From Desulfoferula mesophila (GTDB lineage Bacteria; Desulfobacterota; Desulfarculia; Desulfarculales; Desulfarculaceae), in the NCBI RefSeq assembly GCF_037076455.1, contig NZ_AP028679.1, forward strand, positions 3,239,501-3,303,500: 64,000 nt of DNA. Reading direction: 5' to 3'. The position numbers and the translations under genes were made by a program. Each line of letters starts with the position of its first letter. Position 1 is the stretch's first letter. Positions 50,584 to 63,576 of the stretch are shown in pieces. The notes beneath the pieces were generated by a model. The model worked only from the letters and a program-made list of their open reading frames with translations, searched no databases and was not told the DNA's origin.

Positions 50584-50868
50584 TACACCATAAAATCGCG
50601 CACCCTAGGCTATGCCTATTAAGCCTCTAGCCGCGTTTGGTCGCTCCATATCGGGTCACTCCGCTCTCGTCGCCGTATGCCTATTTGTTGGCAGTTACAA
50701 ATTTCAAAAGACATTTATATACAACAATTATTTAAATAATCTAAAAGCACTAAAATGCCTAAAGATTACGTTTTTGCCCGTATTTGATCCGCACCCTATG
50801 ATATAAAATAAATTTTAGAGGGTATCGTGTTGCATTGTCTATCATCCTATTTTGCAGGGAGGACTGCG

Positions 50869-51219
50869 TTGAGCCGGGTGCCAAAGTGGAACAGTCTAAA
50901 CCGTAAAATGCTCCTGAAGATGATCAAGGAAGGCAAGACGGAACGCGAAATCAGGAAAGTCATGGCCGGCAAGGATAAAAGGATGACTTCCATTGAATTC
51001 GCGCACCAACTGAAGATGGCCTTGGTCGAAGACGGCACGATTAAAACGAAGACGCCTAAAAGCCAGGGCGAGACAGCGCCCGAAAGCTACAAAATCACGC
51101 CAAAGGGACGCCTGGTGATAACCGATTTTTCCGAAAAAGTTGGAGCAGAGCAAGGCGCCTCTTTTATCCTGGAAAAGCCCAGGGGCGGATCCAAGGCTTG
51201 GCGTTTGGTGCCCGCCTAA
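50869..51219 (+). CDS. Small basic protein of unknown function
   Basis: A 116-residue basic protein. Start TTG 50869 is chosen because GGGAGGA lies six bases upstream; the frame continues back to 50827 without a ribosome site. An N-terminal helical stretch, MLLKMIKEGKTEREIRKVMA, could be helix-turn-helix-like, and KITPKGRLVITDFSEKVG might be a wing. A DNA-binding regulator is possible but not shown. It lies between the DsbA-like gene and a curlin gene. Confidence 0.6.
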   Translation: MSRVPKWNSLNRKMLLKMIKEGKTEREIRKVMAGKDKRMTSIEFAHQLKMALVEDGTIKTKTPKSQGETAPESYKITPKGRLVITDFSEKVGAEQGASFILEKPRGGSKAWRLVPA

Positions 51220-51493
51220 TCGTTTCCGCCCAGGCGTCTTCAGCGAGGTCATCACCGCCCCTGATCAAGCAGGAGGCGTCCGGACAGAGGCGCCATGCCC
51301 TCCAGATCAGCTCCGCCCCGTCCCATCCCCATGGCCTAACGGCCTAATTTTATCCGTAATCCCGCGCAATTACCCAATCGCCAAGCGGCTCATCCCCCCC
51401 ATGCCGTCAAAATAGTCCTTATGGCTGATAGCCTATCCCCCGTGATCCGTCTAAAGTATTAGCAAATAACCCTAACCATAAGGGGTGACTATC

Positions 51494-51904
51494 ATGTCCA
51501 AACAGTTGACCGCGTTGGTGGCCGTTTTGCTTTTCATGGCCTGGGCCCTGCCGGCAATGGCCCTCACCAATATTCTGACCTTGGACCCCGACGGATTGGG
51601 CAACTTGGCCACCATCTCGGTAAGTCAGGCGGACACGGCGGACCTGTACGCCGAGATCCAGCAGATCGGCGTGTCCAATATGGCTAACATATCCCAGGAG
51701 GGGAGCGCCCTAAGGGCGGTCATCGGTCAGAACGGCAGCGGCAACTTCGCAGAAATATTCCAGGCCGGCAGCAACCTGCAGGCCTACATCACCCAGGTGG
51801 GAACCAACAATTACGCCAGCACCACCCAGACGGGCAGCAACCAATTTTCCTATATCTACCAGAACGGCACCGGAAACCGGGCCACCGTGGTCCAGTCCAA
51901 CTAA
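51494..51904 (+). CDS. Curlin-repeat protein (CsgA/CsgB-like), short
   Basis: A 136-residue secreted amyloid-type protein. The signal peptide (MSKQLTALVAVLLFMAWALP then AMA) is followed by about five curlin repeats of the form S/A-x-I-x-Q-x-G-x-x-N-x-A, for example NISQEGSALRAVIGQNGSG and YIYQNGTGNRATVVQ. The size matches E. coli CsgA/CsgB (about 151). Start ATG 51494 has AAGGGG about eight bases upstream. It is separated from csgEFG by the oppositely oriented four-gene cassette. It could be the nucleator (CsgB role) or a minor subunit. Confidence 0.85.
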   Translation: MSKQLTALVAVLLFMAWALPAMALTNILTLDPDGLGNLATISVSQADTADLYAEIQQIGVSNMANISQEGSALRAVIGQNGSGNFAEIFQAGSNLQAYITQVGTNNYASTTQTGSNQFSYIYQNGTGNRATVVQSN

Positions 51905-51962: not shown

Positions 51963-54083
51963 TTAACCACCGAAGGTGATTTGGGCTATATAAGGTTCGA
52001 TCAGGGCCTTGATCGGCTCGCTTATGGCCGTCGGGCATTTCAGGGCGCCGTCAAAAAATCCGCAGCCATACTCATTCAGTAGACACATACCCATCAGGTG
52101 ATCTATGGCGCCGTTGACGCCGTGGCGCGCCTCGGCTCCCAGCCGAACCAACAGCCTGCGGTGCAGCCAGGCGGCATTGGGCACCACACCCGCCATGGCC
52201 AACATCGCGCCCAGATCATCGGTCTCCGGCTCACCGGCCAACCGGGCCATCACCTCCTGGTCCACCTCCAAGGCTTCGCATCCCCCAACGCCATGCGGCG
52301 AAGCCAGTACCCAGTCCCGCGCCTGGGCGGCCTCCAAACCCATCAGGCGCAAGGCATAGTAATAAGCGCAGGTGGTGGCCAGGGCAGGGTCGTCCGGGCC
52401 GGGCCCGTCACTGTCCTCGGCCATAACCTCGCGTATCAAAAGGTAAAAATAGCAGCACAAGAGCATCTGCAATTGCTGATCGGCCAGGAATTGCTCACGG
52501 TATATCAGGCAGGCGGCGCGTATCAGCCCCAGGTGCACCGCGTGGACGCAGTCGGCGATATTTTGGGCCTCGCCGGTCTCCGGATCAATGCCCAGGGTGA
52601 CGGCATTGAGCGATATGGCCACCACCCGGTCCTCCTCCGAAAAGAACACCCGGGCCGATATGTTGTCATCCCGCATGATGGGCAGGTGGATGTATATCAA
52701 CTGGGCTTCCAGAGCCCGCGCGATCACGGCCTGGGTGGGGCAGGCGGGCATTTTGGCCAGGCAGCGCCGGAATGCTTCGTCAAACTTGCGGTAGCAGTGG
52801 CTGAACTCCTCGGTGCGGTAAAACACATACAGTTTGTTGCCGAACTGGCGCAGAACCCTCTTGGCTAAATCGTCCCAGTGCCTGATCCGGTGCAACTGCC
52901 GCTCTTGCCGGGCCATGGAAACCAGGGTGCGGCACCAGTTGGAGACCATGAGGGCGTGTTGACTGGAGCGGCTGGCCAAGCCCATGAGATCAGCTTCGCT
53001 AAACAGCAAGGTCATGAGCTTCTGGTGCTCCGGGGTCATTTCGGGGTCGTTTAGCTTGGCCGAGAGCTTGGCGAAACCATCGGGCAGTTGCGCGATGTCC
53101 CGCAGGGGCGCCAGCATGCCGCGTTCCGCGGCCCACTCCAGCACCTCGGACGGGATTTGATGGAAGTTGTCCAGCAGCAGTCCGGGGTCCTGCAGGCAGG
53201 AATGATACAGCCGGAAATTGGATATGGTGGGCAGGCCCAGGGCCATCAGTTGGGCGAAGGTCATGGCCTGGCTCAGGCTCTTCACCGGCAAGGCCGGTAT
53301 GGGCCAGTTGTCGAAATCTATGGTCTCCTCGTCGGGGTACAAAAACAGCTTGGCACCGAACTCCGTGGCCGCCATGACCTTGGCGATCAAGCCGCCCACC
53401 GCATGCACCCGGAAATGCTCGTCAACCCCCCCGGTGGCCATCAGAGAGCGGGGCCACTCGATCCCCTGGGCCAACAGGCCCACCGCCATGGCAAAGGGCA
53501 GCCCCAGGGAATCGCCCCGGACCGAGGGCCCGGAGGGATTGAGCAGTGGCCAGACATAGAAGGCCCGCGATCCACCGTCCACCAGGCCGGAGTCGGTGGC
53601 CGCCTCGAAAGCCATTTCAATGGTCTGCAGGCAGTCTGGTCCCAGGCAGTCCCGAGCCCACCCCGGCATCTCCAGGCCGGAACCGCCGGCCATGGGGGCG
53701 AGCAGCAACTGGAACAAACAACCCTGGTTGTTGACACTCACCAGCGGTATGGGCACCGAGGTCCAGGGCATGGCCAGGGCCTCCAGCCAGGTCAGTCCCG
53801 GCAGCACCGCCTCGACGCTGTGGTTGTCCGCCAGCCACTGGATCAGCCAGGCGGGGGCGGGGTCTTCTTCTTTGGCGATCAAGACCCCGGCGATGGTGTG
53901 CAGGAGGAATATCTCCTCGAGGCCCTGGCGGCTGGCCATATCCATGGCTTGGTTGAGCTGGGCCAGATCCTGGGGCCAAGGCCCGCCCACCTTTTCCAGG
54001 CGGTGGCAGGCCAGCTCCAGGGAATGGGAGTCAGCCATATAGACCAGCAGATCATCCCACTCTTCGGTCAGGGTCACGGCCAT
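51963..54083 (-). CDS. Lon-type Ser-Lys protease-domain protein without AAA+ ATPase
   Basis: A 706-residue cytosolic protein with no membrane segments. Residues about 130-290 resemble the Lon (S16) proteolytic domain. Ser192 sits in VRGDSLGLPFAMAVGLLAQG (Lon consensus G-P-S-A-G) and Lys235 in HAVGGLIAKVMAAT (Lon G-G-L-x-x-K). Their spacing of 43 residues equals that of the E. coli Lon dyad, and MATGGVDEHFRVHAVGG mirrors the Lon MTGEI-x-LRG-x-V-x-P-IGG stretch. No Walker motifs are present. The remaining 400 C-terminal residues, mostly helical, were not recognised and may be a sensor. The start overlaps the upstream stop as TAATG, so it is coupled to the zinc-motif anti-sigma-like gene. Confidence 0.7.
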   Translation of the reverse strand: MAVTLTEEWDDLLVYMADSHSLELACHRLEKVGGPWPQDLAQLNQAMDMASRQGLEEIFLLHTIAGVLIAKEEDPAPAWLIQWLADNHSVEAVLPGLTWLEALAMPWTSVPIPLVSVNNQGCLFQLLLAPMAGGSGLEMPGWARDCLGPDCLQTIEMAFEAATDSGLVDGGSRAFYVWPLLNPSGPSVRGDSLGLPFAMAVGLLAQGIEWPRSLMATGGVDEHFRVHAVGGLIAKVMAATEFGAKLFLYPDEETIDFDNWPIPALPVKSLSQAMTFAQLMALGLPTISNFRLYHSCLQDPGLLLDNFHQIPSEVLEWAAERGMLAPLRDIAQLPDGFAKLSAKLNDPEMTPEHQKLMTLLFSEADLMGLASRSSQHALMVSNWCRTLVSMARQERQLHRIRHWDDLAKRVLRQFGNKLYVFYRTEEFSHCYRKFDEAFRRCLAKMPACPTQAVIARALEAQLIYIHLPIMRDDNISARVFFSEEDRVVAISLNAVTLGIDPETGEAQNIADCVHAVHLGLIRAACLIYREQFLADQQLQMLLCCYFYLLIREVMAEDSDGPGPDDPALATTCAYYYALRLMGLEAAQARDWVLASPHGVGGCEALEVDQEVMARLAGEPETDDLGAMLAMAGVVPNAAWLHRRLLVRLGAEARHGVNGAIDHLMGMCLLNEYGCGFFDGALKCPTAISEPIKALIEPYIAQITFGG

Positions 54084-55312
54084 TACCTCTGCTTGCTGAA
54101 CAACCGGGCGTAAAGGCGGCGGTGAAGCTCGGGCTGCCCCTCGCTCTCGCCCTCCGGGAACACCGCCCAGAAGCGAATGGATTCGGTATCAGTCGGCCCC
54201 AGATGGCCGTTCAGACTTTTGAGCAGTTTGCCTTGGGCGTCCAACCAGCGGAACTCTGCCTGCCAGTGCTCCCCTTCCGGCAGAGGACCCAGGATCCTGC
54301 CTCCCACCGCCACCTTGGGCTGACTCAGGAAGTCGGTGACGTGCGCTTGGAGGAAATGGCAGGCGACCGGCCGTCCTCGGCGGATCTGGAAGGCCAGCAC
54401 CGGCACGCGCCAGCCCTTGTCCGCGGTGGCCGCGGCTTTTAATAGATGTTGTTCGCCGGGGCTGGCGTGGAAGTACAGGTCCGCCGGAGTCAGGCCGGCG
54501 GCCAGCGGCAGTTCCACCTTCAAGCCCAAATCCCGCAGATCCTCGATCAGCCGGGTGGGAGCCTCCGTCTCATCCACGATATCCGAGGCCGTCCGCGGCG
54601 CGGCCTCCGGCTTCTCCGCTCCCTGCGGGGCGTCCATCACCTGGCGGTCCTCCACGGCCGCTTCGTACTCGGCCATCAGCTGTTGGGCCGCGGAAAAGGA
54701 AAAATAGCACCCCAGCTCGATTTCCATCTGCTGGAATACGTGGCCCAGGGACCAGGGGGCCAGGTGAGGGAAAGGCTTTTGGCTGGCTTCACGGACCAAA
54801 GCGGCGGCCGCTGGGTTGGATGGGGCGCATAGCTCGAACAGGTTGCGGCGGTGCAAGGTGTAGACGTTCCACGGCTGGGCGAAACGGCTCTCGTCCAAAA
54901 GCACATCCTGGCTGGAGGCAAAGGTAGGGTCATAGTGGGTCTGCGCCACCAAGACGGCGTTGGCGAGGTTGGGGCCGGTGTCCAGCACCAGCACTAGGGG
55001 TGGCCGATAATAGCGGTGCTTGGGCCCCCAGCCCGCCAAGGCCGGATCCAGGCGCCACACCTGCCCCGGTTCCGGGGACTCATCGGAAGTTTCATGGTGG
55101 CCGTGCCAGGGCTCCGGAGCCAATTGCTGCCAGGGGGGCTCAATGATTTCGGCTGTCCGGCGTCTTTGGCAAAGCAGGCATGCCTCCAGATGGGCCGCCG
55201 CCTCGGGGGTGAGCTCCTGGCCAATGACTTCCTCCAGAGGAGGACAAAACCGCATTTGCCAGGCCAGCTCCCAGGCCTGAAAAATTTGCCATTTCTCAAA
55301 ATAGTCATTCAT
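54083..55312 (-). CDS. Putative cytosolic anti-sigma factor with HxxxCxxC zinc motif
   Basis: A 409-residue protein. The N-terminal 60 residues carry Cys23 and AAHLEACLLCQRR (His41, Cys45, Cys48), the H-x3-C-x2-C signature of zinc-binding anti-sigma domains. Residues about 75-175 (GQVWRLDPALAGW, then YRPPLVLVLDTGPNLANAV) faintly resemble a MazF/PemK-like SH3 barrel. The C-terminal half is unrecognised. No transmembrane helix is seen, unlike most ECF anti-sigmas. ATG 55312 was chosen; ATG 55351, with a GGAG upstream and only 2 bases from the sigma gene, is an alternative. It lies between a sigma-like and a Lon-like gene. Confidence 0.6.
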   Translation of the reverse strand: MNDYFEKWQIFQAWELAWQMRFCPPLEEVIGQELTPEAAAHLEACLLCQRRRTAEIIEPPWQQLAPEPWHGHHETSDESPEPGQVWRLDPALAGWGPKHRYYRPPLVLVLDTGPNLANAVLVAQTHYDPTFASSQDVLLDESRFAQPWNVYTLHRRNLFELCAPSNPAAAALVREASQKPFPHLAPWSLGHVFQQMEIELGCYFSFSAAQQLMAEYEAAVEDRQVMDAPQGAEKPEAAPRTASDIVDETEAPTRLIEDLRDLGLKVELPLAAGLTPADLYFHASPGEQHLLKAAATADKGWRVPVLAFQIRRGRPVACHFLQAHVTDFLSQPKVAVGGRILGPLPEGEHWQAEFRWLDAQGKLLKSLNGHLGPTDTESIRFWAVFPEGESEGQPELHRRLYARLFSKQR

Positions 55313-55353
55313 GGGTGGGGGCCTTTCTTGTGTGTGTGAGCATCCACCCATCT

Positions 55354-56415
55354 CTAACGGTCTCCAAAGTCCTTTTTGCAAGTTTCAGCGATGTAAAGCA
55401 AAAATTTGGTCCAAAATGACCTTTCGCGCGCGGCCGGGGCGACTCCAGGCCAACTTTCAAAAACCAGGGCCAGATCGTCGCAGGCGCGGTCCAGTTGATA
55501 TTTGACGTGGCTCGGCCCGGACAGGCCGGTCATCTGGGCGATCTGCTCCAACGTCAAGTTGCCTGGGTCCAGGGTGAGCTGGAAGACCTTGCGGCGCTTG
55601 GAGCTCCACAGGGAGGCCACCTGCCAGGCCAGGATTTCCAGACCGTCCTGATCGGAGACGTTGTGCGCCGCCAACCCCTCATGGGCCAGGGCCTGGTCGG
55701 ACAACTGTCTCTGTTGAGGGTCGCGCAGGTGCTCATAGTGAGCCACCAGGAAATCAACCAGGCTCCTTATCGGCAGGAAGGCCGGCCGGCCCAGGCGCTC
55801 CACCGCCTGGCGCCAGAAGAACTCGGCCAGGAGGTTCAGGTCCTTGGCCCGCAGGCGCTCCAGATCCTTCGGCCCCACCAGCCCGGCCGGAGAGGGCCAT
55901 TGCGCGTAGGATTCGCCGACCCTCGTCTCCAATGCGGCCTGCGGTTTGGCGCCGAGCTCAAGGCTGAAGAAACTTCCGCCTCCGATGGAGCGCGAATAGA
56001 ACTCCGGACCTTCGGCAATGGCCTGGCGCAGGCGTCGGTAGAGATAACGGTACTGGCTGATGTCCTTATGACGGGCCTGGTCGCGCAGATTTAGGAGAAA
56101 GCCGTTGCGCAGGTAGGCCGCGGTCGTCCTGCCCGGCCGGCCTTGGCTGTCCGAGGTTTCCAACGGAGGAGCCATCCCCTTGGCCAGGAAGTTTTGCAGA
56201 TACAGCCAGAATTCATGGGCCACGTCTTCGATGTTTTGGTCCATCTCCTGGGGGGAGGTCCCGCGGGGGGCAGGAAAGGGCCATAACTTGGCGGGAAGAT
56301 CCAGCGAGGCGGCCCGCGACATAATGATGCGGGCCTCCTGCCGCAGCCAAGGCAGGCACTCGTCGGAGAACAGGTACTGCGCCAAGGATTGGACGTTATC
56401 GGATGCCGGCTTCAT
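55354..56415 (-). CDS. Sigma-70-family-like transcription factor
   Basis: A 353-residue protein. Residues about 60-125 look like sigma region 2 (NIEDVAHEFWLYLQNFL, then AAYLRNGFLLNLRDQARHKD). Residues about 275-320 resemble region 4 with a helix-turn-helix (RKVFQLTLDPGNLTLEQIAQ and SGPSHVKYQLDRACDDL). The long linker makes it larger than a standard ECF factor (about 190 residues). The start ATG 56415 directly abuts the upstream stop. The following gene has a ZAS-type motif, supporting a sigma/anti-sigma pair. Homology is by eye only. Confidence 0.6.
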   Translation of the reverse strand: MKPASDNVQSLAQYLFSDECLPWLRQEARIIMSRAASLDLPAKLWPFPAPRGTSPQEMDQNIEDVAHEFWLYLQNFLAKGMAPPLETSDSQGRPGRTTAAYLRNGFLLNLRDQARHKDISQYRYLYRRLRQAIAEGPEFYSRSIGGGSFFSLELGAKPQAALETRVGESYAQWPSPAGLVGPKDLERLRAKDLNLLAEFFWRQAVERLGRPAFLPIRSLVDFLVAHYEHLRDPQQRQLSDQALAHEGLAAHNVSDQDGLEILAWQVASLWSSKRRKVFQLTLDPGNLTLEQIAQMTGLSGPSHVKYQLDRACDDLALVFESWPGVAPAARERSFWTKFLLYIAETCKKDFGDR

Positions 56416-56973
56416 TCAGGAACCGTCCCGCAGGCAATTTTCAGGCACGCGACCCCAGTAGCGCAGACTCCACAGGAAACCAGGGTCGCTGGGCACTTGA
56501 AAGACGCACTCTTCCACCAGATAGGTCCGCCGTGCAATGACATAGGAGGTGTGCTCCAGACGGCATCCCTGTTCAATGTAACGCTGGTTGTGCAGCCGCT
56601 TACTGGAGCAGGGGCAGAGGCGGTGCCCGGCGTTGCCTATGCGCTGCAACACGAATATTGGATGGGTCTTGCCGGAGCTTGCTGCTTGAGAGGCGAACTC
56701 TCCCCGGGTCAGATGGCGCAGGGCGTTATCCTTGGCGCCCACGAAAAGGCAGCGTTCCTCCCACAAGTTGGGCGGGATAAATCTGATGCCCCGGGCGAAC
56801 TTGCCCCGGGACTGGTTCAGCTTATCCATCACCTGCTTGGAACCCGAGGTCTCCGCATCGCGAAGATGGTGCGCAGGTTGTTTCTTGCCGCGTTTCATAC
56901 GAGAACCCGGGGCGCGGCTGGGCGGCTTGCCCGTCGCCTCCCAGAAAAGAGGAGTATTCGTACCGCGTTTCAT
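56416..56973 (-). CDS. Small basic protein heading the sigma/Lon-like cassette
   Basis: A 185-residue protein whose stop codon directly abuts the sigma-like start codon. Start ATG 56973 has GAGG seven bases upstream; ATG 56898 (also MKRG) is possible. The N-terminus is basic and low complexity. The C-terminal 110 residues look folded, with THPIFVLQRIGNAGHRLCPC and YVIARRTYLVEECVFQV, and faintly recall a MazF/PemK-like barrel. Function unknown; co-translation implies a role with the sigma factor. Confidence 0.55.
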   Translation of the reverse strand: MKRGTNTPLFWEATGKPPSRAPGSRMKRGKKQPAHHLRDAETSGSKQVMDKLNQSRGKFARGIRFIPPNLWEERCLFVGAKDNALRHLTRGEFASQAASSGKTHPIFVLQRIGNAGHRLCPCSSKRLHNQRYIEQGCRLEHTSYVIARRTYLVEECVFQVPSDPGFLWSLRYWGRVPENCLRDGS

Positions 56974-57373
56974 TATGAGCCTCGGACGTAACCTCACGCA
57001 ACCACCCGTGCGGCCTCCCGGAATTACCTTGAGTGCACAAGCGCATCCATCCGACTCCAAACGCCGGGCAACTCCCGCGGCTTGCCTCCCAATCCCCTGT
57101 TTTGTGCGAGCCGCCGCTTTAACCATTTCTAGTTCCCCTAACAATTACCTTTAATTCTCTTAGCTCTATCACCCCTCGGGACTAGCCATCTTTACTAGGC
57201 TGCTTATTATTTTTGGTTAGGCCTTAAATTCTCATTCTATTAATTATAACTAGCCATTTTAATGCCCCCTGAATATTGATAGCCATCTCTATTTCCACCT
57301 ATGCTGGATGTAAATCATCGTAGATTTGACGAGGGTGTTATCAATGCTAACTGATTCGCGAGACGTCTGAGAA
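56974..57373. other. Divergent intergenic region, cassette / csgEFG
   Basis: About 400 bases. From 57130 on it is strongly AT-rich compared with the window. It must hold divergent promoters for the sigma/Lon-like cassette (minus) and csgE (plus). No hexamer pair stood out, and no operator repeat was recognised. Confidence 0.45.
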
Positions 57374-57853
57374 ATGAAATACATTATTGGCCATATTAAC
57401 GCAAGCCATTTAGGGGTGCGTGCCGTCTTTTTGGCCACATTTATATCTTTTGTACTAATTGCATCGGTTTTAAATGCTCACGCTAATGCTGACAACAAAG
57501 CATCGGACAATGGAAAATATGATGAACTGATTAGTTCCGGCCTGGTGATGGATAAAACCATCACGCCCATAGGCCGCCACTTCTATAAAGAGTTCATGGC
57601 TTATTGGACCGCCCCCAGAGGATTATCCGACTACACCATTACCATTATTGAACGCTTTAACCCTCAGTGGGGCAGTATCGCTTGGATCTCCGTGGACGAC
57701 GACATCATCTACCAACAGCTCATTAGTTCGCGCAGGCTCATCATGGAGGATTTGGCCAAGGACGCGGTGCGCCAAGTGCTGCAATTCATGGTCAAAAGGG
57801 AAATTATCAAGCGATACAAGGGCAGTATGGATCTCGAAGGCGACGGGTATTAA
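57374..57853 (+). CDS. csgE: Curli production assembly/transport protein CsgE
   Basis: A 159-residue periplasmic adaptor that caps the CsgG pore and delivers curlin subunits. A hydrophobic signal (about 17-36, ending NAHANA) precedes the diagnostic GLVMDKTITPIGRHFYKEF and YTITIIERFNPQWGSIAWI stretches and DAVRQVLQFM near the end. Codon use is more AT-rich at the 5' end than its neighbours. It is the first gene of csgE-csgF-csgG. Confidence 0.9.
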   Translation: MKYIIGHINASHLGVRAVFLATFISFVLIASVLNAHANADNKASDNGKYDELISSGLVMDKTITPIGRHFYKEFMAYWTAPRGLSDYTITIIERFNPQWGSIAWISVDDDIIYQQLISSRRLIMEDLAKDAVRQVLQFMVKREIIKRYKGSMDLEGDGY

Positions 57854-57869
57854 GAAAGGAAGGCTTCAG

Positions 57870-58292
57870 ATGACCACGATCAAACCGAGCTTGTTCACGT
57901 TAATTTTTGCCGCGGCCCTGCTGGCTATGGCGACCACCGCCTCGGCAACGGAACTAGTTTGGGCACCGATCAATCCCAACTTTGTTGGTGGAAACCCTCT
58001 AATGGCCAATGCACTTTTGGCCAACGCTCAATCGCAGGATAACAACAAAGACCCAGACTTGGATTCAGCTCAGAGCCGCCTTGACGATTTCACCGACAAC
58101 TTGAACCGGAGCATTTTATCGCTCCTGTCAGCCAGAATTGTTGAGCGTGCTTTCGGGACCGACAGTCTGCCAAACGGCACTTTTACTATTGGTGATTACA
58201 CCGTTGTTATCTCCGATACTCTCGGATCATTGAACGTCAATGTATCGGATACCGGTGGCAACAATACTCATATATCCATCCCGACCTTTTAA
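57870..58292 (+). CDS. csgF: Curli production assembly/transport protein CsgF
   Basis: A 140-residue protein with a signal peptide (to about residue 26, TASATE) followed by the conserved CsgF segment LVWAPINPNFVGGNPLMANA, which inserts into the CsgG channel and forms its second constriction. The C-terminus, YTVVISDTLGSLNVNVSD, is typical. Start ATG 57870 follows AAGGAAGG; the longer frame inside csgE is a shadow. CsgF couples secretion to nucleation at the cell surface. Confidence 0.92.
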   Translation: MTTIKPSLFTLIFAAALLAMATTASATELVWAPINPNFVGGNPLMANALLANAQSQDNNKDPDLDSAQSRLDDFTDNLNRSILSLLSARIVERAFGTDSLPNGTFTIGDYTVVISDTLGSLNVNVSDTGGNNTHISIPTF

Positions 58293-58331: not shown

Positions 58332-60128
58332 ATGCTGATCTATCTTAAACGGTTCGGGGTTATGATCCTGCTCACCATGGTATCCGCATGCAGCATTCCC
58401 ATGCATGAATTCGATATCATGCCGCCTCATGTGAGTAGGATAAGTCACACCTATAAAGACCTGGTCTCTCTTCCTTCCCCCAAAGGAAAAATACGAGTCA
58501 GCGTGTACTCCTTCCGGGACATGACCGGGCAGTACAAGCCCCAGCCCAACGTGAGCTCCTTCTCCACGGCGGTGACCCAGGGTGCGGTGAACATCCTGCT
58601 CGAGGCGCTCAAGCGCTCCAAGTGGTTCATCCCGGTGGAGCGTGACGGCCTGCAGAGCCTGCTCACCGAGCGCAAGATCATCGCCGCCGCAAACCGCAAA
58701 AATGGCGCTGGCGAAGCGCAGTTGCCGGCCTTGGAGTTTGCCAACGTGCTGCTGCAGGGCGGCATCACCGCCTATGAGACCAACACCCTCACCGGTGGCT
58801 TCGGGGCGCGCTATTTCGGCATCGGGGGTTCCACCCAGTACCGCATGGACCAAGTCACGGTGCACCTGAGGGCGGTTGACGTTAATTCCGGGCGCATCCT
58901 GAAATCCATCTCCACCACCAAGACCATCTTCTCCTATGAGGTCGACGCCGGAGTCTTCCAGTTCATCTCCTACAAGAAGCTTCTGGAGATCGAGGCGGGC
59001 TTCAGCCAGAACGAGCCCGTGCAGATGTGCGTGGCCGCTGCCATCGAGAAGGCGGTAATCGCCATGGTCATCGAGGGCGTGCAGGACGGCCTCTGGGCCC
59101 TGAAGGACCCCGAGCAGATCAACAGCCCCGTCTTCAAGGACTATGAGGAAGAGTCCCAGCGCCTGGCCACCGAAGCCGAGTTGAAGAGGGTCGAGGCCAA
59201 GGCGGCCGCGGTGCGCAAGGCCAAGTACGACTCCGCGGCTCTGGAGAAGTTCCAGGCCGAGCAGGCCGAGAAGCAGCGGATAGAAGCCGAGGCCAAGGCC
59301 GAGCAGGAAGCCAAGCAGCGGATGGAAGCCGAAGCCAAGGCCGAGGAGCAAGCGAAGCAGCGCATGGAAGCCGAAGCCAAGGCCGAGCAGGAAGCGAAGC
59401 AGCGGATGGAAGCCGAAGCCAAGGCCGAGCAGGAAGCGAAGCTGCGCATGGAAGCCGCGGCCAAGGCCGAGCAGGAAGAGAAGCAGCGGATAGAAGCCGA
59501 GGCCAAGGCCGAGCAGGAAGCGAAGCAGCGCATGGAAGCCGAAGCCAAGGCCGAGCAGGAAGAGAAGCTGCGCATGGAAGCCGCGGCCAAGGCCGAGCAG
59601 GAAGAGAAGCTGCGCATGGAAGCCGCGGCCAAGGCCGAGCAGGAAGAGAAGCTGCGCATGGAAGCCGCGGCCAAGGCCGAGCAGGCCGAGAAGCAGCGGA
59701 TAGAAGCCGAGGCCAAGGCCGAGCAGGCCTCCGCCGAGGCGCAGGACCAGCCTCAGATCAAGAAGTGGACTACCCCCACGCAAGACGGTGATGCGCTCCC
59801 CACCCCCCAGGCCACTCCGGCCAGGGAGGCGGATGTGGAAGGCCGTCGGGGAGTCGGCAAGGCCGGCCAAACCTTGTCCCGAATCGACCAGCCCCAGGCC
59901 GCGCCCCCGCGGGCGCTACCTGGGAGCGAGGCGGCTGCGTCCCTGCCCGCGCAGGAAGCTCCGTCCGCTGCTGGGGCCGAGACCGATCAGGGCGGCGCTC
60001 CCGCCGCGCCCGCGAGCGTAGAGCGCCAGGAGAGCCACAACGCTGCGTCCATCCGGCTGGCCAGCTGGATGCCCTTAAATATCACCCCTCAAGCGGCCCA
60101 GGTGCGGCTGAGCGGCTTGGGAATTTAA
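58332..60128 (+). CDS. csgG: Curli secretion channel CsgG with long repetitive C-terminal extension
   Basis: Outer-membrane lipoprotein pore for curlin secretion. The signal ends in a lipobox (MVSAC, Cys20). The CsgG domain (about 30-285) shows VSVYSFRDMTGQYKPQPNVS, SFSTAVTQGAVNILLEALKR and FANVLLQGGITAYETNTLTG, and the barrel hairpins. E. coli CsgG ends near 277 residues. Here 598 are encoded: a charged helix of eleven 14-residue repeats (310-463) and then a Pro/Ala-rich tail ending in SLPAQEAPSAAG, and IRLASWMPLNITPQ. In known CsgG the C-terminus faces the periplasm, so the extension would project there, perhaps toward the wall or inner membrane. Confidence 0.92.
   Translation: MLIYLKRFGVMILLTMVSACSIPMHEFDIMPPHVSRISHTYKDLVSLPSPKGKIRVSVYSFRDMTGQYKPQPNVSSFSTAVTQGAVNILLEALKRSKWFIPVERDGLQSLLTERKIIAAANRKNGAGEAQLPALEFANVLLQGGITAYETNTLTGGFGARYFGIGGSTQYRMDQVTVHLRAVDVNSGRILKSISTTKTIFSYEVDAGVFQFISYKKLLEIEAGFSQNEPVQMCVAAAIEKAVIAMVIEGVQDGLWALKDPEQINSPVFKDYEEESQRLATEAELKRVEAKAAAVRKAKYDSAALEKFQAEQAEKQRIEAEAKAEQEAKQRMEAEAKAEEQAKQRMEAEAKAEQEAKQRMEAEAKAEQEAKLRMEAAAKAEQEEKQRIEAEAKAEQEAKQRMEAEAKAEQEEKLRMEAAAKAEQEEKLRMEAAAKAEQEEKLRMEAAAKAEQAEKQRIEAEAKAEQASAEAQDQPQIKKWTTPTQDGDALPTPQATPAREADVEGRRGVGKAGQTLSRIDQPQAAPPRALPGSEAAASLPAQEAPSAAGAETDQGGAPAAPASVERQESHNAASIRLASWMPLNITPQAAQVRLSGLGI
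59259..59720 (+). repeat. Eleven 42-bp in-frame tandem repeats in csgG
   Basis: Eleven units of exactly 42 bases encode variants of EQEAKQRMEAEAKA, with R-I or R-M, E-A or A-A and Q or L variations. A partial twelfth unit (EQAS) follows. Fourteen residues equal two heptads, giving a long coiled coil or single alpha-helix. Unit sequences group in patches, as expected from slippage or unequal crossing-over. Confidence 0.93.
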
Positions 60129-60160: not shown

Positions 60161-60994
60161 ATGAACCAATCCACCTCAATCAAAAGGATCTTGGCGGCGA
60201 TGCTGCTGACCCTGTCTCTGGCCGTCTTGGGCGCCGGGCTCACCCCGCCCGCCCTGGCGGCCGGGGGCCAGATCGATGCCCGCTCCAACCAGTCCTACAT
60301 CTATCAAAGCGGGCCTAGCGCCCTGGCTTATGTCGACCAGGTCGGCCAGGGCAACTTCTCGCGGGTGGAGCAGGAGCGTGGCAGCAGCCTGTCTCGGGTC
60401 CGGCAGCTGGGCGAAGAAAACTACTCGGAGATCAAGCAGTACGGCTGGACCACCTTGCAGAACTCGGCCGAGGTGCTGCAACTGGGCCGCCACAACAAAG
60501 CCGTCGTCGAGCAGAACGGCTCGGGCAACCGGGCCGCGATCTCCCAGGCCAGTGCCGGCATCTGGGGCAGCTCCTATGGTGAGTATCTCAACGTGGCCGA
60601 AATCACCCAGTGGGGCACGGGCAACTGGGCCAATATCGACCAGGTGGGCAGCCACAAGGCGACCATCGTCCAGGGTAGCCCCTGTCAGTTGGCCATCGGC
60701 AACCGCGCCTCCATTTACCAGCTCGTCGGCACGGGCAGTGAGGCCTCCATCAGCCAGATGGGATCCCTGAACAGCGCGGCCATCAGCCAAATGGTCGGGG
60801 GCGGCGAGGCCTCCATCACCCAGACCGGCTATTACAACAACGCCACGATCGTCCAGTGGGCGGCCAACGCCCCGGTCAACATCACTCAAAGCGGCAATCG
60901 CAACGTGGCCAATGTGGTCCAGAACGTGGGACTGCCCGTGGAAGTGACCCAGACCGGCCACATGGTCACCAACATCGTCGTGGGAACAAGGTAG
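60161..60994 (+). CDS. Curlin-repeat protein, 277 residues
   Basis: A secreted curli subunit homologue about twice the size of E. coli CsgA. The signal peptide ends around ALAAGG. Roughly ten curlin-like repeats follow, such as YVDQVGQGNFSRVEQ, AVVEQNGSGNRAAISQA and ASITQTGYYNNATIVQ. One cysteine (GSPCQLAIG) interrupts the series. AAGGAG lies nine bases before ATG 60161. It follows csgG by 32 bases. It could serve as major subunit or nucleator; the last repeats lack the regular N, which is reminiscent of CsgB. Confidence 0.88.
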   Translation: MNQSTSIKRILAAMLLTLSLAVLGAGLTPPALAAGGQIDARSNQSYIYQSGPSALAYVDQVGQGNFSRVEQERGSSLSRVRQLGEENYSEIKQYGWTTLQNSAEVLQLGRHNKAVVEQNGSGNRAAISQASAGIWGSSYGEYLNVAEITQWGTGNWANIDQVGSHKATIVQGSPCQLAIGNRASIYQLVGTGSEASISQMGSLNSAAISQMVGGGEASITQTGYYNNATIVQWAANAPVNITQSGNRNVANVVQNVGLPVEVTQTGHMVTNIVVGTR

Positions 60995-61010
60995 GCAACT
61001 CAAATACACC

Positions 61011-61032
61011 AAAGGAGGTGATGCCGATGTAG
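61011..61032 (+). promoter_or_regulatory. Extended perfect Shine-Dalgarno with a minimal ORF
   Basis: AAAGGAGGTGAT (61011-61022) is fully complementary to the canonical 3' end of 16S rRNA. It runs straight into ATG CCG ATG TAG: the second ATG (61027) lies at ideal spacing and is followed at once by a stop. It sits just after the upstream curlin gene in the spacer before the next one. Confidence 0.5.
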
Positions 61033-61162
61033 GAACAGGAGAAGCCCCGAGGAATCAACCTGAGCTTAGCCGAGCGGACCCGGCTAACCCCCAACCAAAC
61101 AAGAACCGTAAGAACCGAGAACCGACAAAGAGACCAAAAACCGAAAGACAAGGAGCAATACA

Positions 61163-61987
61163 GTGAAGAAAATACTATTGGGCTTGCTGGGAGTGTGCCT
61201 GCTTTCCAGTGTTGCCATGGCTGGCGGCATCGACATCGTTAACCAGCCCTACGACTTCCGCAACCAGAGCTATATCACCCAGTCCGGCGACTTCTCCTGG
61301 GCCATGGTGAACCAGTATGGCGACCAGAGCGTTTCTACCATCTCGCAGACCGGCACCTTTGACAAGGCCTACGTGTCCCAGAGCTCCAACTGCTGCTTCA
61401 AGGTTGTCAAGAGCTGGGGCGGCCATCACAACTGGTTCAATAACTACAAGCTGGTGGCCCTGTTCACCGGTGACTTCTGGCAGAACGCTTCTTACATCAG
61501 CCAAAGTGGCAGGGGCTTCCACGACGCTTACGTGAACCAGAACGGCGACGGCAACTGGAGCGTGGTGGTGCAGAAGGGCAAGAAGGACGGCGCCCACGTC
61601 ACGCAGAACGGCAACTTCAACCTGAGCCAGATCAAGCAGGATGGCTGGGGCGTTAACAACGCCTTGGTGGACCAGTCCGGCGACGGCAACGTCAGCTTTA
61701 TCGACCAGACCGGTGGCGGCGTCAACCTGGCCATGGTTGATCAGCACGGCTACGGGAACTTCAGCGATATCAACCAGGGTGGGAACAAGTTCTCCCTGTA
61801 CGGCGGCTTCCATTGCCCCATCAATGGCGGCAGCGGCATCAACACCGCCGTGGTGAACCAGCTCGGCTACATGAACTACAGCGAGATCACCCAGACCGGC
61901 CGCGGCACGCACACCGCCTTCGTGAACCAGGCCAACTTCTGCTACACCGCCAGCCTTCCCGGCTGCCCGGGCGGAAGATGCAACTAG
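61163..61987 (+). CDS. Cysteine-containing curlin-repeat protein, 274 residues
   Basis: A secreted curlin homologue. The signal peptide ends near AMAGG. Repeats include YITQSGDFSWAMVNQYG, AYVNQNGDGNWSVVVQKG and ALVDQSGDGNVSFIDQTG. Two insertions break the repeat rhythm, around residues 75-105 and 210-225. It has six cysteines (NCCFK, FHCPI, NFCYT, PGCPGGRC), unusual because enterobacterial CsgA and CsgB lack cysteine in the mature part. Start GTG 61163 has AAGGAG seven bases upstream. A strong hairpin follows the gene. It is a probable major or specialised fibre subunit. Confidence 0.87.
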   Translation: MKKILLGLLGVCLLSSVAMAGGIDIVNQPYDFRNQSYITQSGDFSWAMVNQYGDQSVSTISQTGTFDKAYVSQSSNCCFKVVKSWGGHHNWFNNYKLVALFTGDFWQNASYISQSGRGFHDAYVNQNGDGNWSVVVQKGKKDGAHVTQNGNFNLSQIKQDGWGVNNALVDQSGDGNVSFIDQTGGGVNLAMVDQHGYGNFSDINQGGNKFSLYGGFHCPINGGSGINTAVVNQLGYMNYSEITQTGRGTHTAFVNQANFCYTASLPGCPGGRCN

Positions 61988-62108: not shown

Positions 62109-62789
62109 GTGAAGATGCAGTCCACGGCCATAGCGATTGTCTTGGGGTTGCTGCTGATTTGCCTGCCCCACTTGGCCCGAAGCGAACAAGGACCGGACAA
62201 GCCCCCTCCCCAGGTTGATCTGAACGGTGACGGCAAGGTCAGCCTTGAGGAGCACTTGGCCTGGGAAAAGCGCATGTTCGCCAGCTACGACACCAACGGC
62301 GACGGCTACCTTGAAGTTGACGAGGTGGCCAAACAGTCCGAAACCATTACCTTGCCCGACGTTGCATCCAACGAAAAAAAACCGGACGGCGATTTGGCCC
62401 TGAAGGAACAGGAACCCACTATATATAAGTTCAGTCCCGATTTGGACCAGGACGGAGACAACCGGCTAAGCCTGAAGGAACATTTGGATTACCAGACCAA
62501 AAAATTCAACAGCAATGACTTGAACGGCGACGGCCAATTGACCATGCAGGAAATCAGGGACAAGGCGCGAATGGCCCAGGCAGAAGCCATGGCCAAGCTG
62601 AAGATCATGCAGGAGCAGTGGCAGCTGGATAGCAAGAACACTCCTGGTCCTTTGCCCCAGGTCGAAGCGGACAACAAAACCGCCAGCATTGCCCAAGTGC
62701 CAGCGGCACCCCCCAGGAAATTCACATTTCAAGAACAGCCATCATCGGGGAAAGGTTCTTTAACTCTAGAAAAATCTACTCTCAAGTGA
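62109..62789 (+). CDS. Exported protein with four EF-hand loops
   Basis: A 226-residue protein with an N-terminal signal (about 1-25, LARSEQG). Four canonical calcium loops are visible: DLNGDGKVSLEE, DTNGDGYLEVDE, DQDGDNRLSLKE and DLNGDGQLTMQE, as two pairs separated by an acidic linker. A helical segment rich in Met, Ala and Lys and a Pro-rich tail follow. The start is GTG 62109. It is probably a periplasmic or surface calcium-binding protein; its place among curli genes suggests a calcium-linked role in fibre assembly, which is inference. Confidence 0.85.
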   Translation: MKMQSTAIAIVLGLLLICLPHLARSEQGPDKPPPQVDLNGDGKVSLEEHLAWEKRMFASYDTNGDGYLEVDEVAKQSETITLPDVASNEKKPDGDLALKEQEPTIYKFSPDLDQDGDNRLSLKEHLDYQTKKFNSNDLNGDGQLTMQEIRDKARMAQAEAMAKLKIMQEQWQLDSKNTPGPLPQVEADNKTASIAQVPAAPPRKFTFQEQPSSGKGSLTLEKSTLK

Positions 62790-62886
62790 ATAAGCGTAGT
62801 ATTATGAATTCACATGTTAAAACTCTAGGATTTTCCCCTGTGACCTGCCAGGCGTGTGCTGCCCACGCGCGCTATGGAGTACAGCG

Positions 62887-63576
62887 ATGAACTTGGTAAT
62901 GAAAAACCGCGAGGACACCAGCCAAAGGAACCTCAAGGTGCACGTGGCGGGTGGGCAGCGCCTAACCAACAAGTTGGTTTGCGGCCTGCTTTCAGCCAAT
63001 GAAGGCATGATCCCCTCCGAAGGCCCCCTGGATGACCTTCCTTTGCTCATCGACGGGGGCGAGGACCAGAAGCCCGACGTGGTCCTTCTGGACTACTTCA
63101 CGCCTGAGGTACAGGAGCGCCTCCACGAGGATGGCCTAAACCTGCTGGTCAGCCTGAAGGGCACCCCGACCATCGTGTTCAACTTCGGCCAGGAGACCCA
63201 TTCCAAAAAGTGGATCGTCAACGGCGTGCGCGGCGTGGTCTATGCCGAGGAGAAGCCCGAGATCATCGTCAAGGCGGTGATGGTAGTCTCCATGGGGCAC
63301 ATGTGGTTCCCCCGGGAAGCCATGTCCAAATGCCTGAGCAACAGCTGGGACGACAAGCCCAAGCAGAAGCGGGAAGAAGGCGACCTCACCAACCGGGAAA
63401 AAGAGGTGCTTTCCTTGGCGGCGGAAGGCTTCAGCAACGCGGCCATCGCCGACAAGCTGTTCATAAGCGCCTACACCGTGAAAGTTCATATGCAAAACAT
63501 CTATAGAAAGATCGGTGTTCCCAATCGTGTGACGGCATCCATTTGGGCCCGAAAGCACTTGGACCTCGAAGCATAG
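62887..63576 (+). CDS. CsgD-like LuxR-family transcriptional regulator
   Basis: A 229-residue regulator. The C-terminal LuxR/GerE helix-turn-helix (about 165-225) reads LTNREKEVLSLAAEGFSNAA, then IADKLFISAYTVKVHMQNIY. The N-terminal domain is receiver-like (PDVVLLDYFTPEVQERL with a possible phospho-Asp) but atypical, as in CsgD. Start ATG 62887 was chosen over the upstream in-frame ATG 62854 for lack of conservation there. Its position in the curli locus suggests it controls curli expression. Confidence 0.85.
   Translation: MNLVMKNREDTSQRNLKVHVAGGQRLTNKLVCGLLSANEGMIPSEGPLDDLPLLIDGGEDQKPDVVLLDYFTPEVQERLHEDGLNLLVSLKGTPTIVFNFGQETHSKKWIVNGVRGVVYAEEKPEIIVKAVMVVSMGHMWFPREAMSKCLSNSWDDKPKQKREEGDLTNREKEVLSLAAEGFSNAAIADKLFISAYTVKVHMQNIYRKIGVPNRVTASIWARKHLDLEA

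Follow-up and report, generated by a model that had tools for sequence, protein, structure and literature searches.

A four-gene cassette with sigma-like, zinc-motif and Lon-like proteins at the curli locus of Desulfoferula mesophila and its relatives in type III CRISPR loci

Cleavage of an anti-sigma factor has been demonstrated in two systems encoded at type III CRISPR (clustered regularly interspaced short palindromic repeats) loci (PMC11417357, PMC10028731). These are CalpL/CalpT/CalpS of Sulfurihydrogenibium (PMC11417357, PMC12751052), where the C-terminal end of CalpL is the sensor (PMC11417357), and Csx29/Csx30/Csx31/CASP-sigma of the type III-E locus of Desulfonema ishimotonii (PMC10028731). 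Sigma factors freed by a protease are a recent theme of CRISPR immunity, and their targets are largely unknown. Here we describe a cassette of four minus-strand genes, encoding a small protein, a sigma-like protein, a zinc-motif protein and a Lon-like protease, in a window of 64,000 nucleotides from Desulfoferula mesophila (contig NZ_AP028679.1, positions 3,239,501 to 3,303,500). The cassette stands within the curli locus, head to head with csgE-csgF-csgG, while its relatives are found in type III CRISPR loci. The principle of a protease-freed sigma factor is already known, whereas the family and its curli siting appear to be new; a relay of this type seems here to be linked to a single recognisable operon, that of curli, in genomes that lack the CRISPR trigger.

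The first gene of the cassette (56416-56973) encodes the small protein of at most 185 aa, for which homologues point to a possible start at the ATG at 56898. It is followed by the genes for the sigma-like protein (353 aa; 55354-56415), the zinc-motif protein (409 aa; 54083-55312), which is a putative anti-sigma factor and putative protease substrate, and the Lon-like protease (706 aa; 51963-54083). The open reading frames and their junctions (TGA-ATG, a gap of 41 nt and TAATG, in this order) match the four joined genes described in an earlier note on this DNA, and such junctions fit a single operon with coupled translation. All four genes were recovered by tblastn, with their order kept, in Desulfocarbo indianensis (L016/L019) and in the metagenome-assembled genome WY2.bin153 (L017/L018). 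As the same order occurs in these two other genera, and the cassette proteins share 40-54% identity across the three genera of Desulfarculia, the four frames of the window are real genes. The small protein is about 51% identical to its homologues in two genera and its profile recovers the cassette throughout the phylum, but it belongs to no known family, having no match in Pfam, NCBIfam, PADLOC or PDB.

By analogy the cassette resembles both described systems in its working, but we assign it to neither. Like CalpL/CalpT/CalpS, the family combines a Ser-Lys protease of the Lon type with adjoining genes for a putative anti-sigma factor and a sigma-like protein in type III CRISPR loci. In contrast to that system, neither SAVED, which binds cyclic tetra-adenylate (cA4), nor CARF was detected by sequence in the protease C-terminus of curli or CRISPR members; there is an additional conserved small protein, the putative anti-sigma factor carries a zinc motif, and the window copy lies at curli in a genome without Cas10, the messenger-making type III system occurring only near its relatives. 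The type III-E CASP locus, a CRISPR locus of Desulfobacterota, has a similar set, in which a protease and its anti-sigma substrate are joined by a sigma factor and by a conserved small protein without assigned role, but the protease of our cassette is of the Lon type instead of the TPR-CHAT Csx29. The Cas7-11 effector is a mark of type III-E CASP; the relatives of our cassette carry Cas10-type loci. The small and zinc-motif proteins are likened to Csx31 and Csx30 by description only. A family of this composition (Lon without detectable SAVED or CARF, zinc partner, small protein) and its siting at curli are absent from the literature searched, although some of these proteins may have been listed earlier in a catalogue.

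A survey of gene neighbourhoods, as proposed in the earlier note, shows that the cassette recurs away from curli. The small-protein profile, run on 395 genomes of the phylum, gave 12 loci outside Desulfarculia, and class-level searches around three of these added six, ten and none, respectively, which brings the total to 28. The first 12 all hold the small, sigma-like and zinc-motif genes and a fourth gene of 700-odd residues in order; among the 28, L125 and the Lon gene of L197 are cut by contig ends, and the Lon frame is interrupted in L130 and L193. Type III CRISPR parts or arrays are present in the fetched stretches of 21 of the 28 loci (17 of these with Cas10, within ~30 kb). The remaining seven (L059, L066, L068, L125, L132, L194 and L197) are on contigs shorter than 12 kb or at a contig edge, hence no locus with full flanks is CRISPR-free. 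NCBIfam matches near the relatives include TIGR02221 CARF proteins, Cas10/Cmr2, Cmr1 and Cas1, and further neighbours are CARF-type adenosine deaminases (Cad1-like), a primase (AEP-TOTE) and repeat arrays. In two type III CRISPR loci a Cad1-like protein, with a CARF-like N-terminus and an adenosine deaminase domain, adjoins the cassette (L058, 14507-16675; L063, 10904-13129). No relatives of the cassette were found in phages and plasmids.

Cas10 is absent from the complete genome to which the window belongs. Weak Cas10 matches in two genomes of the curli branch (G010 and G018) were rejected: of those examined, three contain the GGEEF of diguanylate cyclases, others have scores far below that of Cas10, and none is a full Cas10. 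Taken together, the CRISPR parts at 21 of 28 relatives and the lack of Cas10 in the window genome indicate a relay family associated with type III CRISPR in Desulfobacterota, with the curli copies as one clade outside CRISPR. The likeness to CalpL/CalpT/CalpS put forward in the earlier note is strengthened by these whole-cassette relatives, whereas its description of the relay as CRISPR-independent holds for the curli branch only and fails for the relatives.

The curli locus, also recognised in the earlier note, is confirmed by Pfam matches on the plus strand to CsgE (57374-57853; PF10627, 1.9e-23), CsgF (57648-58292 as the listed frame, the true start lying further in; PF10614, 1.6e-31), CsgG (58332-60128; PF03783, 3.8e-74, residues 46-257) and three curlin-repeat proteins. 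Two of the latter are csgB/csgA-like (60161-61987; PF07012), and the third lies on the opposite side of the cassette (51485-51904; PF07012, 6.5e-23). Cassette and csgEFG are divergently oriented in all three Desulfarculia copies. Among 63 Desulfarculia genomes, three have both CsgE and the cassette, one has CsgE alone and none has the cassette alone (Fisher 1e-4, a value that takes no account of the shared ancestry of the genomes). Identity among the three curli loci is 63-73% for CsgG, 37-46% for CsgE and 40-54% for the cassette, indicating that cassette and curli have stayed together over a long divergence.

In the tree, the curli copies form one clade (support 100/100) that is placed among the CRISPR copies by midpoint rooting. 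The history could also be read in reverse, with a curli-type chromosomal regulator as the ancestral form that type III CRISPR recruited and provided with an input domain, and the lack of an outgroup leaves room for this. However, the three curli copies group tightly in one clade and come from one class only. The deep diversity lies with the CRISPR copies, which are spread over many families, and the midpoint root falls among them; we regard the reverse history as very improbable.

The protease of the cassette has a Lon proteolytic (S16) domain at residues 106-285 (53229-53768, minus strand), as supported by the profile of 15 Lon-like members, which matches LonB-type proteolytic domains (4.8e-16) and CalpL (8.5e-4), both within the Lon domain only. 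Ser192 (53508-53510) and Lys235 (53379-53381) are invariant in all 15 aligned homologues, and the Ser-Lys dyad of the Lon type named in the earlier note is hence upheld. The dyad and the domain profile are common to Lon and LonB, but no AAA+ ATPase domain was detected in the window protease, and its Lon domain is fused to N- and C-terminal regions unrelated to those enzymes. The C-terminal region (residues 286-706; 51966-53228, minus) is the putative input domain. No known fold was found for it in either the curli or the CRISPR clade, with weak TPR matches only.

This region is where the curli branch differs from its relatives. We scored the curli proteins domain by domain against CRISPR-clade profiles, using the CRISPR outlier L069 as a yardstick. 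The Lon domains of the curli copies reach 84-98 bits (L069, 87.5 bits), and their zinc-motif, sigma-like and small proteins 138-216 bits, above or near L069 (181-209 bits for the zinc-motif protein alone). The C-terminal regions reach only 9-21 bits, confined in profile-profile alignment to the first ~150 residues, against 297 bits over the full length in L069 and 231-338 bits in later-found Desulfobacteria copies. By these scores, the final ~260 protease residues were replaced or rebuilt in the curli clade, and no other cassette region is so changed. The selective divergence lends support to the sensor role that the earlier note assigned to the C-terminal residues. The curli clade may thus be seen as a natural experiment in which the sensor was changed and the output module kept.

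The sigma-like protein contains a helix-turn-helix resembling sigma region 4, which binds the -35 element, at residues 250-325 (55441-55668, minus), as confirmed by sequence profiles and by a predicted model. Its profile matches FliA region 4 (1.2e-4), Sigma70_r4 is matched in 10 of 15 members, and hhalign against 15 sigma proteins of relatives, of the size of extracytoplasmic function (ECF) factors, aligns region 4 (P 2.5e-10). The model (predicted local distance difference test, pLDDT, 72 overall) gave nothing at E <0.001 in Foldseek, region 4 coming from VIA-align only (Z 7.4 and root-mean-square deviation 1.9-2.3 to SigD region 4). A Z below 8 may reflect a common arrangement, yet sigma region 4 makes up almost the whole top of the list, and the sequence evidence points the same way.

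The zinc-motif protein carries C23 and H41-x3-C45-x2-C48 (55169-55246, minus), in which Cys23, His41 and Cys45 are kept in 15 of 15 homologues and Cys48 in 14. The motif reported in the earlier note is therefore present and conserved, together with an upstream cysteine. A cysteine followed by H-x3-C-x2-C near the N-terminus is the pattern of zinc-binding anti-sigma (ZAS) factors such as RsrA. In contrast to ZAS factors, the protein has ~350 further residues without known fold, and no ZAS-type profile matches it above threshold. A MazF-like fold, as in the anti-sigma substrate of the CalpL/CalpT/CalpS system, was considered for the zinc-motif and small proteins, for which hhalign against MazF homologues gave the expected register without significance (P values of 0.29 and 0.024 in single comparisons); we do not claim it.

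The four-gene unit, its CRISPR-linked relatives, its kept curli position, the dyad, region 4, the zinc motif and the C-terminal divergence can be read from the sequences. Binding, cleavage, sigma release, target promoters and the direction of the move we infer from the analogy with CalpL/CalpT/CalpS and Csx29/Csx30/CASP-sigma. By this analogy, the zinc-motif protein would keep the sigma-like protein inactive until a trigger was sensed by the C-terminal part of the protease and the Ser192-Lys235 site cut the zinc-motif protein, and the freed sigma-like protein would then start transcription. The most likely output would be the divergent curli operon, beginning with csgE, and perhaps the promoter of the cassette itself; the csgE promoter would offer a simple target for such a relay. 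In the Desulfarculia lineage the cassette would have moved out of CRISPR to its site facing csgEFG and, with the C-terminal input region replaced or rebuilt, would now be driven by another signal. That a CRISPR-type relay moved to curli in this way, with a changed input region, a cleaved zinc-motif protein, a freed sigma-like protein and a curli output, is in our judgement marginally probable. The broader proposal, that a type III CRISPR relay was co-opted to switch on amyloid biofilm genes through a changed protease input, with the protease domain and the anti-sigma, sigma-like and small proteins retained, and that its core is a plug-in output module, used also beside E1, E2 and helicase genes, we put forward tentatively, as rather less than an even prospect.

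Several observations weigh against the proposed relay. Sigma region 2 was not detected in the N-terminal 230 residues of the sigma-like protein by hhalign or PDB profile search, so that this protein may be less than a full sigma factor. The sigma-70-like assignment of the earlier note thus stands for region 4, found by profile, hhalign and model, and is without a match for region 2, the part for core binding and -10 recognition. Under a different reading, the 353-aa protein is a DNA-binding regulator with a region 4-like helix-turn-helix, part of a repressor or activator switch in which the protease would eliminate either the partner of this regulator or the regulator. In favour of this reading, region 4 is the only sigma region detectable, and neither sigma profiles nor PDB chains gave a match to the N-terminal 230 residues; its pairing with a ZAS-like zinc-motif protein, as in sigma factors, argues in the other direction, and Arg, Tyr and Phe positions kept in the N-terminal part of 15 of 15 homologues could mark a very divergent region 2. 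We consider this reading rather unlikely.

Also on the negative side, no fold was obtained for the zinc-motif protein, as its AlphaFold2 (AF2) model from three sequences had a pLDDT of 43 and was discarded. A common dyad of the -35/-10 type was not found in the three intergenic regions between csgE and the small-protein gene, and the LuxR-type regulator in the window and L016 curli loci could control curli. Genome G008 has curli genes without the cassette, and csgF and csgG have diverged more slowly than the cassette. With no outgroup in the tree, only midpoint rooting and counts speak for the direction of the move. Some of this is what one would see if the cassette were a passenger, that is, a defence module still intact or decaying, which lies beside curli through block inheritance and has no control over it. 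The family is CRISPR-linked elsewhere, curli and cassette are both missing from most Desulfarculia genomes and could have spread as a single block, and the shared csgE promoter dyad is wanting. A passenger would, however, lack its Cas10 trigger and still have kept four open frames with their catalytic residues in three genera at 40-54% identity, its head-to-head siting in three of three copies, and a C-terminal region that was rebuilt and not lost. We judge a passenger to be unlikely.

The core of the cassette also occurs without the protease. Two loci (L201 and L207) have the small, sigma-like and zinc-motif genes without a Lon gene. In both, ThiF (E1) is encoded upstream of these genes and helicase-like frames lie downstream of them; L201 has confirmed matches to Prok-E2, JAB and DEAD-helicase. 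With E1/E2/helicase genes in place of Lon, the three-gene core seems to serve as an output module for more than one kind of input. This second defence-like setting covers 2174-11212 of L201 and 34-7865 of L207. Partial homologues of the small protein were seen at L210 (4779-5126) and L211 (2-199), with the other cassette genes absent from the fetched stretch and one of the two at a contig end. The 28 CRISPR-type loci offer material for finding the defence targets of the sigma-like protein.

A few other features of the curli locus stand out. The divergent promoter region between cassette and csgE (56974-57373) holds three copies of TAGCCATYTYWA at 57183-57291, which are possible sites for a LuxR-type or other regulator. 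CsgG of the window has ~340 additional C-terminal residues with repeats of the KAEQEAKQRMEAEA type, and a similar extension is present in the CsgG of L016. Ahead of the third curlin gene, a short frame (50827-51219) has a weak helix-turn-helix match and no confident family. Beyond the curlin genes, 62109-63576 encodes an EF-hand protein and a LuxR/GerE-type regulator, and similar genes are found in the L016 curli locus.

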